Source: Thermoleophilaceae bacterium (GTDB lineage: Bacteria > Actinomycetota > Thermoleophilia > Solirubrobacterales > Thermoleophilaceae). Taken from it: DNA of 64,000 nt. This document shows, piece after piece, positions 31,418-64,000 of this stretch. A program made the translations under genes and the position numbers. Every line of letters starts with the position of its first letter. Position 1 is the first letter of the stretch. The stretch is from positions 62,001 to 126,000 of the forward strand of contig DASUWY010000048.1 in NCBI GenBank assembly GCA_036378175.1, written 5' to 3'. The notes under the pieces are model-generated. The model did no database searches and was not told where the DNA came from. It saw only the letters and a list, made by a program, of their open reading frames with translations.

Positions 31418-32863
31418 GTGAACCTGCCCGCCTATCGCGACGACGCCGAGGAGTTCGTCTCGTCGCTCGACCGTGAGTACTACCGGCACTTCGCCGGGCT
31501 CCAGGACGAGTTCGACATAGAGGCGATCTACGACCGCCACGCCGAGCTGTTCTCGCGAGACAGCGTGCAGCGGCTGCGCGAGGAGGGCACGACCCAGCTC
31601 GTGGAGTTCGCCGTGCACGGATTCATCGGCCGCGCGACGAAGGCGGAGAGCGCGGAGCTCGCGCGGCGGGAGGCGGCCCTCGAGATCGAGGTGGACGGCG
31701 AGCGCATGCCGTTCAGGCAGTCGGCGGTGATCCAGGCGAACGAGCGCGATCCGGAGCGGCGCCACGCGATCGAGACGGCGCGCCTCGAGGCGGCGGAGCG
31801 GAAGCTCGACCCGCTGCTGCGCGAGGCGCTCGAGCGCTCGCACGCGCTGGCCGGGGAGCTGGGCTGGCCGAGCATGCGCGCGATGTGCGAGGAGCTGTCG
31901 GGCATCGACCTCGGCGCGCTCGAGGCGCAGACCTCCGCGTTCCTCGAGAGCACGGAGAACATGTACGAGCAGATCGTCTCCGGCCCACTGGAGAACGAGC
32001 TGGGCTACGGCTTCGACCGCTTCCGCCGCGCGGACATGGCCTACTTCTTCAGGGCGCCGTCGCTCGACGGCGTGTACCCCGACGCCCGCCTGCTCGAGAG
32101 CCTCGAGCAGACCCTGAGTGGGCTCCAGCTCCATCCGCCCGGCGTGATCCTCGATGTGGAGCAGCGGCCGAAGAAGAACCCCCGCGCGTTCTGCTCGCCC
32201 GTGCGCGTGCCCGACGAGGTGTACCTCGTGATCTCGCGCCGCGGCGGCCGCGACGACTACGAGACTCTCTTCCACGAGGCGGGGCACGCGCAGCACTTCG
32301 CGCACATGCCGGAGTCGCTGCCCATGGAGCACCGCTACCTCGGCGACAACTCGATCACCGAGAGCTTCGCCTTCCTCTTCCAGCACCTCACCGCCAACCC
32401 GGCGTGGCTGCGCGCGCGGCTCGACATCCAGGAGCCGGCGCAGATCGAGGCGCAGTTCCGCGCGGTCAAGCTGATCTTCCTGCGCCGCTACGCGGCGAAG
32501 CTCTCGTACGAGCTCGTGCTGCATTCGGCACCCCCGTCACTCGATCCGCTGCGCGAGGTCTATGCCCGGCGGCTGTCGGACGCGCTCCACATCGAGTGGC
32601 CGAGCGCGAGCTGGCTCAGCGACGTGGACGCGTTCTTCTACGCGGCTGCGTACATCCGAGCGTGGGCCCTCGAGACGCACGTGCGCCGTCTGCTGCACGA
32701 GCGCTTCGGCGACCTATGGTTCGACGAGCCGGAGGCGGGCGAGTTCCTCATCACGCTGTGGCGCCAGGGCCAGAGCATGCGCGGCGACGAGCTGCTGCGC
32801 GAGCTCACCGGCGCCGAGCTCGACTTCAGCGCGCTGCTCGACGACCTCAAGCTCGCCGCTTGA
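31418..32863 (+). CDS. M3-like zinc metallopeptidase
   Basis: A 481-residue mostly helical protein of the gluzincin type. The zinc motif HExxH is in ETLFHEAGHAQHFAH, and a third ligand Glu is in DNSITESFAFLFQHL about 25 residues later, the M3/M32 arrangement. AFCSPVRVPDEVYLVI before it and AYIRAWALETHVRR near the end also fit oligoendopeptidases. Likely a cytosolic oligopeptidase. Start GTG is supported by the upstream box; the frame is open about 36 bases further. The 3' end overlaps the convergent DHFR-like gene by 17 bases. Confidence 0.82.
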   Translation: MNLPAYRDDAEEFVSSLDREYYRHFAGLQDEFDIEAIYDRHAELFSRDSVQRLREEGTTQLVEFAVHGFIGRATKAESAELARREAALEIEVDGERMPFRQSAVIQANERDPERRHAIETARLEAAERKLDPLLREALERSHALAGELGWPSMRAMCEELSGIDLGALEAQTSAFLESTENMYEQIVSGPLENELGYGFDRFRRADMAYFFRAPSLDGVYPDARLLESLEQTLSGLQLHPPGVILDVEQRPKKNPRAFCSPVRVPDEVYLVISRRGGRDDYETLFHEAGHAQHFAHMPESLPMEHRYLGDNSITESFAFLFQHLTANPAWLRARLDIQEPAQIEAQFRAVKLIFLRRYAAKLSYELVLHSAPPSLDPLREVYARRLSDALHIEWPSASWLSDVDAFFYAAAYIRAWALETHVRRLLHERFGDLWFDEPEAGEFLITLWRQGQSMRGDELLRELTGAELDFSALLDDLKLAA

Positions 32864-33383
32864 GCGGGCGGTAGTCGAGCAGCACGAGGCGTCGGTCGAG
32901 GACCCGCTGCTCGGCCAGCTCGAGGTCGATGTCCGGCAGCCCGGCGAGGAATGGCTCGCGCCCGGTCTCGCCGAGGATCTGAGGGAAGACCACGAGCCGC
33001 AGGCGGTCGAGCAGCCCGTTTGCGAGAAGCGACCTCACGAGCGAAAGGCTGCCCATGCAGCGCAGCGGCGGACCCTCTTCGGACTTGAGCTCGCGCACCT
33101 TCTCGATCGAATCGAGCAGCCGCGCGTTCCAGGAGAGCGGCTCGCTCAGCGTCGTCGACACCACGAACTTCGGGAGCGCGTCCATCCGGTTGTCATACCC
33201 CTCGTTGGACATCGCCGAGAACAGCTCGTAGGTCACCCGGCCGAGCAGCAAACCCTGCGGCTTGGCCAGCTCCTCATCGATCCAGCGCTCGAGCTCAGGC
33301 CCCAGGTAGCCGAAGTACGCGGGGCTGCGCTCGCCCCTGGCGAACCCGTCGACGGTGGTGAAGAGGTCGGCGAGGAGCTCTAT
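32847..33383 (-). CDS. Dihydrofolate-reductase-fold (RibD C-terminal-like) protein with non-standard start
   Basis: A reductase-like protein of about 178 residues. The coding pattern runs from ELLADLFTTVDGFARGERSP through QGLLLGRVTYELF, RCMGSLSLVRSLL and LRLVVFPQILGETGRE, the usual order in small NADPH-dependent RibD-like proteins. No ATG, GTG or TTG occurs in frame before the internal TTG at 33249-33251, which would remove the conserved first 44 residues. The best start is ATA at 33381-33383, overlapping the TAG stop of the upstream gene (ATAG). Substrate unknown. Confidence 0.75.
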   Translation of the reverse strand: MELLADLFTTVDGFARGERSPAYFGYLGPELERWIDEELAKPQGLLLGRVTYELFSAMSNEGYDNRMDALPKFVVSTTLSEPLSWNARLLDSIEKVRELKSEEGPPLRCMGSLSLVRSLLANGLLDRLRLVVFPQILGETGREPFLAGLPDIDLELAEQRVLDRRLVLLDYRPLKRRA

Positions 33384-42114: not shown

Positions 42115-42560
42115 GCGATCGCTACCGGAGCGACGGCGGCCCGCCCGACGGCGCCTTCTCGATGCTGCAGCGCGTGCGCTTCGGCGACCTCGACGCGATG
42201 CAGCACATGAACAACGTGGAGTACCTGCGCTTCTTCGAGACCGCGCGGATCGACTACCTGATGGGAATCCTGCCGGAGCACAACCCGGGCAGCCGCCGGC
42301 AGTTCGGCTTCATCTTTGCGGAGTGCCACATCGCCTACCGCTCGCCCGCGCACTTCGGCGAGGAGATCCGCACCTTCATCTGGCCGACGGATCTGCGGCG
42401 CTCGAGCGTGCGCCTCGAATTCGCGATGCGCTCCGAGTCCGACGGCCGCTCGCTCGCGGAGGGCTACGGCGTGCTCGTGGGCTACGACTACGCGGCGGGC
42501 GAGTCGCGCGCGGTGCCCGACGAGCTGCGCGAAAGGTTGGAGCCTGAGCTCGTTGGATAG
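42111..42560 (+). CDS. Acyl-CoA thioesterase of the 4HBT hot-dog family
   Basis: A 149-residue hot-dog-fold protein. RVRFGDLDAMQHMNNVEYLR gives the active-site Asp and the HMNN turn of 4-hydroxybenzoyl-CoA-thioesterase-like enzymes, followed by FFETARIDYL and the central helix pattern. It hydrolyses acyl-CoA esters; substrate unknown. The GTG start overlaps the upstream stop by four bases; the lpd gene begins 14 bases later. Confidence 0.85.
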   Translation: MSDRYRSDGGPPDGAFSMLQRVRFGDLDAMQHMNNVEYLRFFETARIDYLMGILPEHNPGSRRQFGFIFAECHIAYRSPAHFGEEIRTFIWPTDLRRSSVRLEFAMRSESDGRSLAEGYGVLVGYDYAAGESRAVPDELRERLEPELVG

Positions 42561-46145: not shown

Positions 46146-46721
46146 ATGCCCCAGCGGCCGATCTTCTACTTCGATCTCGGCTCGCCGTACTCGTATCTGG
46201 CCGCAGAGCGCGTGAACAGCCTGCTGCCCGAGGTGCCGGTGTGGCAGCCGGTGCTGCTCGGTGCGATCTTCCAGGCGCGCGGTTACGGCTCGTGGTCGCA
46301 GACCGACGAGCGCGAGGCGGGCATGGCCGAGGTGGAGAGGCGCGCGCGGGAACGCGGGCTGCCGGAGATCCGCTGGCCGGACCCGTGGCCGGGCAACACG
46401 CTCACCGCGATGCGCGCCGCCACGTTCGCGCAGCAGACCGGCCGCACCGTCGCGTTCGCGCTCGCCGCGTTCCGCCAGGCGTTCGCCGGCGGCCGCGATC
46501 TGAGCGAGGTGGACAACGTGCTGATCGCCGCGGCCGCGTGTGAGCTGCACCCGCGCGCGGTACTCACCGGGATAGAGATGCGATCGGTGAAGGACAGGCT
46601 GCGCGCCGCAACCGACGAGGCGATCGCGCGCGGTGTAACCGGTGTCCCCTCGATCGCGATCGGCGAGCAGGTCTTCTGGGGCGACGACAGGCTCGAAGAG
46701 GCGGCCGAGGCTATTCGCTAA
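46146..46721 (+). CDS. 2-hydroxychromene-2-carboxylate isomerase-like DsbA-fold protein
   Basis: A 191-residue DsbA-family protein (kappa-GST-like). FYFDLGSPYSYLAAERV (residues 7-23) carries the glutathione-site Ser of HCCA isomerases, and the C-terminal ARGVTGVPSIAIGEQVFWG is the cis-Pro loop. No CxxC. The known family reaction is in naphthalene breakdown, but many members have unknown substrates. The neighbouring FUSC exporter also points loosely to aromatic compounds. Confidence 0.82.
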   Translation: MPQRPIFYFDLGSPYSYLAAERVNSLLPEVPVWQPVLLGAIFQARGYGSWSQTDEREAGMAEVERRARERGLPEIRWPDPWPGNTLTAMRAATFAQQTGRTVAFALAAFRQAFAGGRDLSEVDNVLIAAAACELHPRAVLTGIEMRSVKDRLRAATDEAIARGVTGVPSIAIGEQVFWGDDRLEEAAEAIR

Positions 46722-61016: not shown

Positions 61017-62594
61017 ATGAGAGCCCGGATGCTGCTTGCAGGCGCGGCCGCCACTCTGGCCACCGTCGCGCTGGTCCCGTCCAATGCCGGCGCGCGTGTG
61101 CTGCTCGTGGGAACCTGGCATGGCCATCACGGCTCGTTCACCTCGATCCAGGCAGCCGTGGACGCCGCGAAGCCGGGCGACTGGATCCTGGTCGGCCCCG
61201 GCGACTACCACGAGCGCGGTGACCGCGACCCGCGCTACAGGAAGCTGGCTGAAAAGGGCGCCGGCGTGATGATCACCACACCGCGCATCCACCTGCGCGG
61301 CATGAACCGCAACAGCGTGGTGGTGGACGGCACGAAGCCCGGGTCGACGAAGTGCAGCCGTAAGCCCTCGTCCCAGGACCTCGGTCCCGTGATTCACCAC
61401 AAGCACAACGGCCGCAACGGCGTGGAGGTGTTCAAGACCGCCGGGGTGACCGTCGAGAACCTCACCGCCTGCAACTTCCTCGAGGGCAACGGCAGCTCCG
61501 GCAACCAGATCTGGTTCAACTTCGGCGACGGCAGTGGCAAGAGCATGCGCGGCGCTTTCCGGGGCGCCTACCTCAACGCCACCTCCACCTACTACGCCAC
61601 CGGCAGGCCCGCAGCGTCCTACGGGATCTTCTCGAGCAACAGCCGGGGGCCGGGCGTGTTCGCCCACACCTACGCGAGCAACATGAACGACTCGAGCTAC
61701 TACATCGGCGCCTGCACCGACTGCAACCAGGTCCTGACCGATGGCCACGCCCAGTACAGCGTGCTCGGCTACTCAGGCACCAACGCCGGTGGCCACCTCA
61801 TTGTCGAGAACTCCGAGTGGGACCACAACCAGTCCGGCATCGTCACCAACAGCCAGAACAACGACGACGCCCCCTCGCCGCAGCTCGGCCTGTGCCCGGA
61901 GAGCACCTCCACGTCGTGCACGGTCTTCCGGAACAACAACATCCACGACAACAACAACCCCAACGTGCCGAAGGCCGGGAGCGCCTCCCTCGGCCCCGTG
62001 GGCTCGGGAATTGTGATCGCGGGCGGACGCCACGACACCGTCACGGGCAATCGGATCGCGAACAACGGCTCGTGGGGCGTGCTGCTGGTCCCCTTCCCCG
62101 ACCTCGGCACCCCGCCGCCGATCGCGCACTGCGAGGGGGGCGTGACCAACGGACCGCTGCCCGGTTGCTACTACGACGACTGGGGCAACGAGGTGTCGAA
62201 CAACAAGTTCACCCACAACGGCTTCTTCGGCAATCCCACCAACGGCGACGCCGGTGAGGTGAGCGGGCAGAACGTGTTCGGAAATTGCTGGCACGGCAAC
62301 ACCAACACCGCCGGCACGCCCATCACGAGCACGCCCGCCGACATCCAGACGTCCCACGGCATCTGCATGACGCCGAACGCCGGCGAGGGAGTGGACAGCG
62401 CGCTGGCGGCGCAGCTGATCTGCGCCACGGAGCTGCTCGCTCCGTGCCCCCCGGTGCCGGGGATGAGCTATCCGCGGGTCACGAAAGTGGTGATGCCCGC
62501 GCTGCCACGCGGCCTGCGCACGATGCCCAACCCATGCGCGGGCGTCCCGGCCAACGCCTTCTGCGCGCGCACCGGCCCGCGGTTCACCGGCTAG
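61017..62594 (+). CDS. Secreted right-handed beta-helix protein (pectate-lyase-like fold)
   Basis: A 525-residue exported protein: signal peptide MRARMLLAGAAATLATVALV to about residue 28 (NAGA-RVL). The mature part has the beta-helix entry SFTSIQAAVDAAKPGDWILV, repeated NBD-type turns such as GVEVFKTAGVTVENLTACN, GNQIWFNFG, NNNIHDNNNPN and TVTGNRIANNGSWG, and several cysteines likely in disulfides. No lyase catalytic triad is obvious. May bind or cut polysaccharide. Confidence 0.8.
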   Translation: MRARMLLAGAAATLATVALVPSNAGARVLLVGTWHGHHGSFTSIQAAVDAAKPGDWILVGPGDYHERGDRDPRYRKLAEKGAGVMITTPRIHLRGMNRNSVVVDGTKPGSTKCSRKPSSQDLGPVIHHKHNGRNGVEVFKTAGVTVENLTACNFLEGNGSSGNQIWFNFGDGSGKSMRGAFRGAYLNATSTYYATGRPAASYGIFSSNSRGPGVFAHTYASNMNDSSYYIGACTDCNQVLTDGHAQYSVLGYSGTNAGGHLIVENSEWDHNQSGIVTNSQNNDDAPSPQLGLCPESTSTSCTVFRNNNIHDNNNPNVPKAGSASLGPVGSGIVIAGGRHDTVTGNRIANNGSWGVLLVPFPDLGTPPPIAHCEGGVTNGPLPGCYYDDWGNEVSNNKFTHNGFFGNPTNGDAGEVSGQNVFGNCWHGNTNTAGTPITSTPADIQTSHGICMTPNAGEGVDSALAAQLICATELLAPCPPVPGMSYPRVTKVVMPALPRGLRTMPNPCAGVPANAFCARTGPRFTG

Positions 62595-62600
62595 CGTGGC

Positions 62601-63650
62601 CTACAGCCAGCGGAAGCCGAGCTCCGACGGCTGCGGCTCGAGCGGGCTCGACGGCAGCCCGTCCGGCGGTTCCGGCAGGTTGTAGCCCGACGGCGCCACG
62701 TCGTTCGGCGTGTTCGGGTGGAAGAGCGAGGCGAGGTACTGGATCTGGCCGCGCCCCGGCCCAAGCTCGAACTGGCCGCCGCCGTACGCGCCGATGCCGC
62801 GCTCCTCGCAGTAGTCGTAGGCGGCGAACAGCTCCTGCAGCCCGCCGAGGCGCGACGGCTTGATGTTCACCATCCGCGGCGGGAACGGCAGCGACTCGAT
62901 GTCCGCCACCGAGTGGATGTTCGCGTCCCAGGTGATGCGGTCGCGGTACGGCTCGAGCACCGGATCGGTCTCCTCGTTCAGCCGCGGGTCCTCGATCCAC
63001 GCGTCCGGGAACGCCTCGGCCACGCGCCGGTACAGCTCCGGATCGGCTCCGGCGTCCACCACCGTGCCCACGTAGAGCCCCTTGAGGTCAACCGAGTCCA
63101 CCGCGCCCGTGGCCACGAGCTCCGCGATCAGCTCGTCGGTCCACTCGTTGGTGGGGTCGAGCTTGAAGCGCAGCGTCGGATAGCGCGCTAGGCGCCTGCG
63201 CAACGGCTCGATGGTCGGTGGCTCGCCGAGCCGCAGCGACACGACGAAGGTGAGCGGCCGCATCTCACGCCCCACCGCGGCATGGAGCGTCGTACCCGCC
63301 TGCCTCAGCGCGAGGTCGAGCGCAGCGCTCTCGAAGGCCCAGCGCCGGTAGCGGCGCGACACATCCCGCACCGGCTCCGCCGGGAAGAGATCGAGCGACC
63401 CCACGAGGTCGCAGAACTCGCCAAGTGTGCGCGACCCCGCCAGGTCGAGCACGGGCCCCGCGTCCTGCAGCGCCACGTGGTCGAGCGCGTCATACGTCAC
63501 GTCCTCGCCCACGCCCTCGTGCCCGTCGCCGGAGATCCGGATGACGGTGGACAGCCGAGTGAAGTCCGACGACACGTCCGCCTCGAGCCCTTCGAGCGAG
63601 TAGCCGTCGATCTCGACGGGCAGCGATGCGACCGACTCGAAAAGGGCTAC
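62601..63650 (-). CDS. Enolase-superfamily enzyme (muconate/OSBS/epimerase type), GTA start
   Basis: A 349-residue protein counted from GTA 63648-63650. Catalytic features: RFKLDPTNEW (Lys), WIEDPRLNEE (Asp), TWDANIHSV (Asp) and NIKPSRLGGLQ (Lys on the other face), with ELGPGRGQIQY near the end. The reaction may be epimerisation, dehydration or cycloisomerisation. The expected family N-terminus VALFESVASLPVEIDGYSLE begins at the GTA, seven bases after AGGAGG, and overlaps the permease TAG (GTAG). The first standard in-frame start (63573-63575) would delete 25 conserved residues. Confidence 0.8.
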   Translation of the reverse strand, partial: VALFESVASLPVEIDGYSLEGLEADVSSDFTRLSTVIRISGDGHEGVGEDVTYDALDHVALQDAGPVLDLAGSRTLGEFCDLVGSLDLFPAEPVRDVSRRYRRWAFESAALDLALRQAGTTLHAAVGREMRPLTFVVSLRLGEPPTIEPLRRRLARYPTLRFKLDPTNEWTDELIAELVATGAVDSVDLKGLYVGTVVDAGADPELYRRVAEAFPDAWIEDPRLNEETDPVLEPYRDRITWDANIHSVADIESLPFPPRMVNIKPSRLGGLQELFAAYDYCEERGIGAYGGGQFELGPGRGQIQYLASLFHPNTPNDVAPSGYNLPEPPDGLPSSPLEPQPSELGFRWL

Positions 63651-64000
63651 GCGATCGCCTCCTGCTCAGGCCGCACCGCGGCCATCTTCTCGGCGCGGCG
63701 CTGCTGCAGCACCGTGAGGATCGCTATCCCCACCGTGAAGACGAAGATCATCGTGGCCACGATATTCACCTCGGGCGGGATCGACACGCGCGCCGCGCCC
63801 CAGATGAAGAGCGGATAGGTGACGGTCGAGCCGGCGTTGAAGTTCGTGATCACGAAGTCGTCGATCGACAGCGCGAACGCGAGCAACCCGGCCGCCAACA
63901 CGCCGGGGGCGATCAGCGGCAACGTGACGCGGTAGAAGGTCTGCCAGGCGTTCGCCCCAAGGTCCTGCGCCGCTTCCTCCAGGGAGCGGTCGAAGCCGAT
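63647..64000 (-). CDS. potC: Spermidine/putrescine-type ABC transporter permease, C-terminal part (runs off the right edge)
   Basis: The last 117 residues of an inner-membrane permease. IGFDRSLEEAAQDLGANAWQ carries the EAA loop that docks to the ATPase. LPLIAPGVLAAGLLAFALSI, DDFVITNFNAGSTVTYPLF and a final helix IFVFTVGIAILTVLQQRR follow; the DDFVITNF sequence is typical of PotC. The rest of the operon (PotA, PotB, PotD) must lie beyond the window. Confidence 0.9.
   Translation of the reverse strand: MGFDRSLEEAAQDLGANAWQTFYRVTLPLIAPGVLAAGLLAFALSIDDFVITNFNAGSTVTYPLFIWGAARVSIPPEVNIVATMIFVFTVGIAILTVLQQRRAEKMAAVRPEQEAIA

Follow-up and report, generated by a model that had tools for sequence, protein, structure and literature searches.

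The GTAG junction at which an enolase-superfamily gene meets the stop codon of an ABC transporter permease looks, from comparison with relatives, more like what a small deletion has left behind than like a new translation rule. Our preferred reading, to which we give an even chance of being right, is that the enolase-like gene may still be weakly translated from the GTA, in coupling with the permease. The junction was found in the window, that is, the whole 64,000-nucleotide stretch of DNA that was analysed; its genome (G000) is represented by a single assembly of 4.29 Mb in 89 contigs. Set beside its relatives, in which the permease and the enolase-like gene are also neighbours, G000 has lost the promoter-like element and the canonical start of this gene, and the coding sequence opens right at the permease stop (Table 1).

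Table 1. Features of the two NTAG junctions and their genes in the window.
Feature	Coordinates	Strand	Remarks
Enolase-superfamily gene	62601..63650	-	349 codons from GTA; nearest solved: o-succinylbenzoate synthase / N-acylamino acid racemase
GTG codon 26, earliest canonical codon of the frame	63573..63575	-	Starting there would take away the greater part of the capping domain's first strand
CTG codon 10, rival near-cognate start	63621..63623	-	Enolase-like frame, from the codon list
GTAG junction	63647..63650	-	GTA in the enolase-like start column, -4 overlap with permease TAG
ABC transporter permease gene, 3' part (BPD_transp_1, PF00528)	63647..64000	-	Tail VRPEQEAIA*; gene extends past the window; upstream operon in L061
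AGGAGG, Shine-Dalgarno-like	63658..63663	-	7 nt before GTA; permease codons CAG GAG G..
In-frame TGA	63666..63668	-	Closes the enolase-like frame upstream of GTA; 5 open codons between
RibD_C-domain gene (PF01872, E 6.4e-18)	32847..33383	-	No canonical start
ATAG junction	33380..33383	-	ATA at the RibD_C N-terminus, overlapping the upstream gene's TAG; identical in G067

Positions 63663-63647 of the minus strand read AGGAGG CGATCGC GTAG, which confirms the description in the sequence-only reading of an AGGAGG seven bases upstream of a GTA that overlaps the permease TAG. The GTA (63650-63648) sits one base ahead of the TAG (63649-63647), with both genes on the same strand, and the junction as assembled is GCGATCGCGTAGCCC. 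The last codons of the permease frame are GAG CAG GAG GCG ATC GCG TAG, and the DNA around this end reads GCG ATC GCG TAG CCC TTT TC. The enolase-like frame is open for 349 codons counting the GTA (348 beyond it). Upstream it is closed by a TGA (63668-63666) six codons before the GTA; the five codons between them (GCA GGA GGC GAT CGC) include no start codon, and the earliest ATG, GTG or TTG downstream is the GTG at 63575, codon 26. Since no canonical codon lies between this TGA and GTG 63575, the gene is without an ordinary start, and its homologous start has no ATG, GTG or TTG at or near it. The overlap shares no NTG with a TGA, its stop being TAG and its candidate start GTA. Taken by itself, the pattern AGGAGG-N3-10-NTAG is no more frequent in the window than chance allows (2 observed vs 0.84 expected; at least 2 in 18 of 100 shuffles), and it is homology that makes the GTAG observation real. 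Pattern statistics were rejected as a discriminator: coding DNA avoids TAG, so that a reversed control pattern turns up much more often. Folding of the GTA region is somewhat more stable than that of shuffles (z -1.66), a point against the preferred reading.

The enolase-like protein was found in 190 of the 201 genomes of the order that were searched. From 103 loci, removal of 10 duplicates and 2 edge cases left 91 distinct loci, the window included, which were aligned N-terminally. The GTA column holds a canonical codon in 71 of the 90 other loci (ATG 42, GTG 27, TTG 2) and the remaining 19 start at most 11 codons upstream, so that a canonical start at the column or no more than 11 codons before it is present in 90/90. 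The placement of the GTA at the enolase-family N-terminus is thereby borne out. GTAG itself stands at the start of none of the 90 orthologues, so the codon is not kept in relatives. A structure model built on a 30-row alignment (mean pLDDT 94.2) places a helix at residues 5-8 and strands at 11-14 and 16-27, with block means of pLDDT 94, 98 and 80 over residues 1-25. In this model residues 1-25 are part of the fold, and a protein begun at codon 26 would lack all or most of the helix and the strands. Near the ribosome site, no codon other than the GTA could start the full-length protein, and annotation restricted to canonical codons would miss the first 25 codons.

Two genomes of the genus were compared, and the scar is present in one of them. 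In the sister species (G067), the enzyme is 93% identical and is encoded on a 7759-base contig, with a GTG start at 1485. The permease of G067 ends GAG CAG GAG GCG ATC GCC GTC TAG CCG and is followed by a convergent gene. This gene (L062, 841-1428, minus strand) encodes 195 aa with a signal-peptide-like start and lies between permease and enzyme; no homologue of it was found in G000. In G014, from the same family, the permease ends GAG CAG GAA GCC GTT TAG CCC and the enzyme begins with an ATG 62 nt past the stop. Both relatives carry sequence between the genes that includes a start and a promoter-like element. In G000, DNA homology along the permease extends to 63651 and restarts within the enzyme gene. 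Judged by this comparison, G000 lacks everything between permease and enzyme, whichever arrangement is older; G067 could instead carry an insertion, which would not alter the finding that G000 has lost its start and promoter. Many joins tie at an edit distance of 9 in the breakpoint alignment, no single breakpoint standing out.

The sequence-only reading had called the AGGAGG an ideal ribosome site. The motif and its spacing of 7 nt stand; the hexamer is inherited permease coding sequence that G067 has without a following gene. It evidently did not arise as a ribosome site for the enzyme, because it lies in the codons of the PEQEA tail and is unchanged in G067 with no start behind it. G014 has AGGAAG in its place.

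We surveyed the upstream DNA of the 70 orthologues whose start column holds a canonical codon and whose upstream sequence is long enough. A -10-like TANNNT ending 5-11 nt before the start was present in 46 of them, against 0, 2, 0, 1 and 1 at shifted positions and a mean of 2.4 (maximum 6) in shuffles, and a Shine-Dalgarno-like motif in 10. Judging from this spacing, the gene seems to be normally leaderless, its transcript beginning at or next to the start codon. G067 has TACGCT 7 nt before the enzyme GTG, and no TANNNT occurs within 100 nt of the gene in G000. The combination of TANNNT with a rare Shine-Dalgarno motif recurs across the order (L003, L004, L015, L064 and others). In some other lineages, an ATGA, GTGA or TTGA joins the enolase-like gene to an upstream coding frame, which we take to be putatively xseB-like; in many of the 42 NTGA cases among the orthologues the frame upstream is short or does not code for protein, and these are incidental.

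According to the preferred reading, a small deletion would have removed the enzyme's own promoter and start and joined the gene to the permease stop. The GTA could be the permease's own G-TAG standing in for the lost start, or an old GTG changed to GTA, a change that would have come when the join also had to supply the permease stop. We infer that permease G-TAG-CC probably replaced the first codons, because TAG-CC is common to all three permease ends. Transcription would presumably come from the transporter operon. A ribosome terminating at the permease UAG would stand over both AGGAGG and GUA, and the AGGAGG in the final permease codons might happen to hold terminated ribosomes there. Re-initiation at GUA, with the initiator tRNA mispaired at the third base, is the less certain step; it would be weak but possible, at a low level, in the manner of the GTC of sigR behind its AGGAGGTG (PMC5472188). 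The gene would in this way have shifted from leaderless expression under its own promoter to operon-coupled expression from a weak start, and its product is predicted to begin (Met)-ALFESVASLPVEIDGYSLEGLEADVSSDFTR. In Escherichia coli, GTA is a poor start, falling in a group with 0.01-6.5% of the ATG value in a GFP library and in one with 0.5-15.7% in a lacZ library (PMC6925171), and no value for GUA appears in the accessible part of PMC11497404. The arrangement resembles overlapping genes formed by loss and replacement of a start, in which a start is lost and the gene boundary shifts onto the neighbour (PMC3887535); in that model, however, the replacement start is canonical, and the enolase-like gene of G000 has none available. 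Stop read-through was rejected, as the enzyme is in the -1 frame relative to the permease; a -1 frameshift was considered, and inspection by eye showed no slippery heptamer at either junction.

Alternatively, the gene is no longer usefully translated, and a recent deletion of promoter and start has made it an incipient pseudogene. We consider this rather unlikely. The loss of the -10-like element and the canonical start would be as expected, as would the weakness of GTA as a start (PMC6925171). Changes also fall in four of the first seven codons, which hold 4 of the 25 residue differences between G000 and G067; G067 has the commoner state in all four, and the N-terminus itself may have been rewritten in G000. 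Nevertheless, no stops or frameshifts interrupt the 349 codons. Of the 25 differences, scored against 28 outgroup rows, 11 depart from the commoner state in G000 and 13 in G067, with one tie, which gives no indication of faster decay on the G000 branch. The dN/dS against G067 is 0.083 for the enzyme (349 codons) and 0.059 for the permease tail (117 codons); like the branch counts, it averages the whole divergence and cannot date a loss. The intact sequence argues against long decay, not against recent loss, and could merely reflect how recent the deletion is.

Translation from a later codon, reached by scanning past the TAG, appears improbable, whether at CTG codon 10 (63623) or at GTG codon 26 (63575). 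A start at codon 10 would retain strand 16-27, and the column of GTG 63575 does hold a canonical codon in 17 of the 90 orthologue loci (absent in 73). On the other hand, the spacing of the AGGAGG suits the GTA and not the CTG, and beginning at codon 26 would cost helix 5-8 together with the greater part of the first long strand. A later start is required in none of the orthologues: the possibility that all of them begin at the later GTG fails, an earlier canonical start being present in 90/90.

An assembly or consensus error at the junction is less probable still. One extra base (e.g. GATCGCCGTAGCC) would fuse permease and enzyme in one frame, and one changed base (GTGG) would restore a GTG and let the permease run on. 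Such an error would be compatible with the single assembly in 89 contigs and with the 8-nt palindrome GCGATCGC at the junction; the permease of G067 moreover ends one codon later, in EAIAV*, and one extra C in G000 would read EAIAV-ALFESV. Against this, the junction contains no long homopolymer, its TAG matches the conserved permease end, and the missing spacer, promoter and convergent gene are inexplicable by a base error.

The sequence-only reading had also held that the overlap mirrors an ATAG case, and there is indeed a second NTA-on-TAG junction, at 33383-33380, that is shared with the sister species. No canonical codon occurs in the 112 open codons upstream of this ATA or in the 44 downstream. 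The identical junction of G067 (L138) reads GGCTCATAGAGCT (79% identity). Before the ATAG, the differences between the two genomes fall on third positions of the upstream gene (30/1/4 at RibD-frame positions 1/2/3 over 300 nt); after it, in the first 120 nt, most of them lie on third positions of the RibD frame (1/4/9). The RibD_C gene has a dN/dS of 0.368 across its 177 codons and of 0.193 in the first 20. Both genomes of the genus have thus kept the gene under moderate constraint without a canonical start, and the ATAG junction, identical in the two, is more promising than the GTAG as a real NTAG start. In G014 and G097, an ATG stands immediately ahead of the ATA column.

A codon-pair gene model was applied to 60 stretches of G000 together with the window (1,263,900 bases; 1134 genes scoring at least 25). 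In-frame -4 junctions were ATGA (103), GTGA (85), CTGA (41), CTAG (17), GTAG (15) and TTGA (14), with TTAG (4), GTAA (4), CTAA (3), ATAG (3) and TTAA (1) rarer. A junction was called startless if no canonical codon lay within 15 codons downstream or 25 upstream. Startless GTAG (1/15) and ATAG (1/3) junctions were limited to the two in the window, so that the ATAG and GTAG junctions of this 1.26 Mb gave no third case; other startless junctions were CTAG (2/17), TTAG (1/4), TTAA (1/1) and CTGA (7/41). The two window cases thus do not stand for a common habit, and the survey lends no support to a genome-wide rule or to the relaxed start-codon choice that had been proposed for this organism. In 400 kb of G144, a one-contig genome of the same order used as a control, neither of two GTAG junctions nor the one ATAG was startless.

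The start of infC points the same way. Its product, IF3, rejects non-canonical starts, and an ATT or ATC start of infC is the usual mark of this, ATT in E. coli and ATC in Streptomyces (PMC5472188). Directly ahead of the conserved N-terminus, infC has ATC in place of a canonical codon in G000 (L254) and ATT in G067 (L252); some relatives have GTG or GTC at the same position. These codons argue for normal start-codon discrimination in this organism. The anti-Shine-Dalgarno sequence was unreadable, no 16S gene having been found in the G000 assembly. That coupled re-initiation generally tolerates NTA starts on TAG stops here is very improbable: two startless NTAG genes do lie within one window, and G067 shares the ATAG unchanged, codon periodicity switching there from one gene to the next, but the other 16 of the 18 ATAG and GTAG junctions in the 1.26 Mb have a canonical start near, the control gave 0/3, and the ATC of infC suggests discrimination by IF3.

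Two further ATAG sites in the window were rejected as NTAG cases. At 42557 (+), the protein, which is presumably dihydrolipoamide-dehydrogenase-like, begins at an ATG six codons on; at 46714 (-), the frame is not protein-like and the gene model places a plus-strand gene. Startless CTGA overlaps in the survey included L204:11976 (+), L231:16998 (-), L186:3563 (+) and L175:5191 (-). At least some of these genes likely start at CTG, such as that for the LSLFRRGG...DWLIVGLGNPGD protein, which we take to be peptidyl-tRNA-hydrolase-like.

The junction shares with the NTGA overlaps of termination-reinitiation a start one base before the stop, a -1 frame and a nearby Shine-Dalgarno motif, and differs from them in its TAG stop and GTA candidate start. 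The -4 class is named as ATGA or GTGA in one source (PMC10666635) and as NTGA in another (PMC12548453); as far as the accessible parts of such reviews and surveys go, it is given as NTGA only, and GTAG or ATAG with an NTA start would be a variant of it. In the literature searched, mostly outside subscription journals, GTA or NTAG starts of bacteria were not described; PMC4648390 concerns non-bacterial cells and was set aside. Among non-canonical starts, the GTC of sigR in Streptomyces and the ATT or ATC of infC likewise mismatch a canonical start at the third base, sigR in an actinobacterium and behind an extended ribosome site, AGGAGGTG (PMC5472188). However, sigR is regulated and has been tested experimentally, whereas the GTA of G000 is a candidate start at a probable deletion scar, seen in one genome. 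A tentative extension, which we think somewhat unlikely, is that -4 TAG overlaps in this lineage carry NTA translation, the ATAG having been kept across a species split and the GTAG being a fresh instance after the deletion; codon-anticodon pairing would have to contribute little for a ribosome that is on the overlap from the outset. NTAG junctions would then form a functional class that has been overlooked and that gene finders put in the wrong place. If GTA or ATA does work, stop/start overlaps would extend beyond NTGA, and how strictly a start codon is chosen would vary with the ribosome's route, by re-initiation or not. Should neither work, the locus would be a clear natural case of a gene with a leaderless promoter moved into a neighbour's operon by a start-removing deletion.

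The enzyme resembles o-succinylbenzoate synthase and N-acylamino acid racemase in fold and profile matches (1sja, 1r0m, 2zc8), from which it differs in having only about 20% identity in the fold matches. Its score with the NCBIfam equivalog menC (39.6) is far below the cut-off of 200.65, so no reaction was assigned. Racemases and OSBS of the enolase superfamily carry a KxK motif; residues 163-165 here read K-L-D, and this actinobacterial family may, given that substitution, perform other catalysis. The gene beside the enzyme at 61017-62591 (+) has another gene in its position in G067, and its nearest DNA match in that genome (71%) is on another contig; with this neighbour displaced as well, both flanks of the enzyme gene are unstable.
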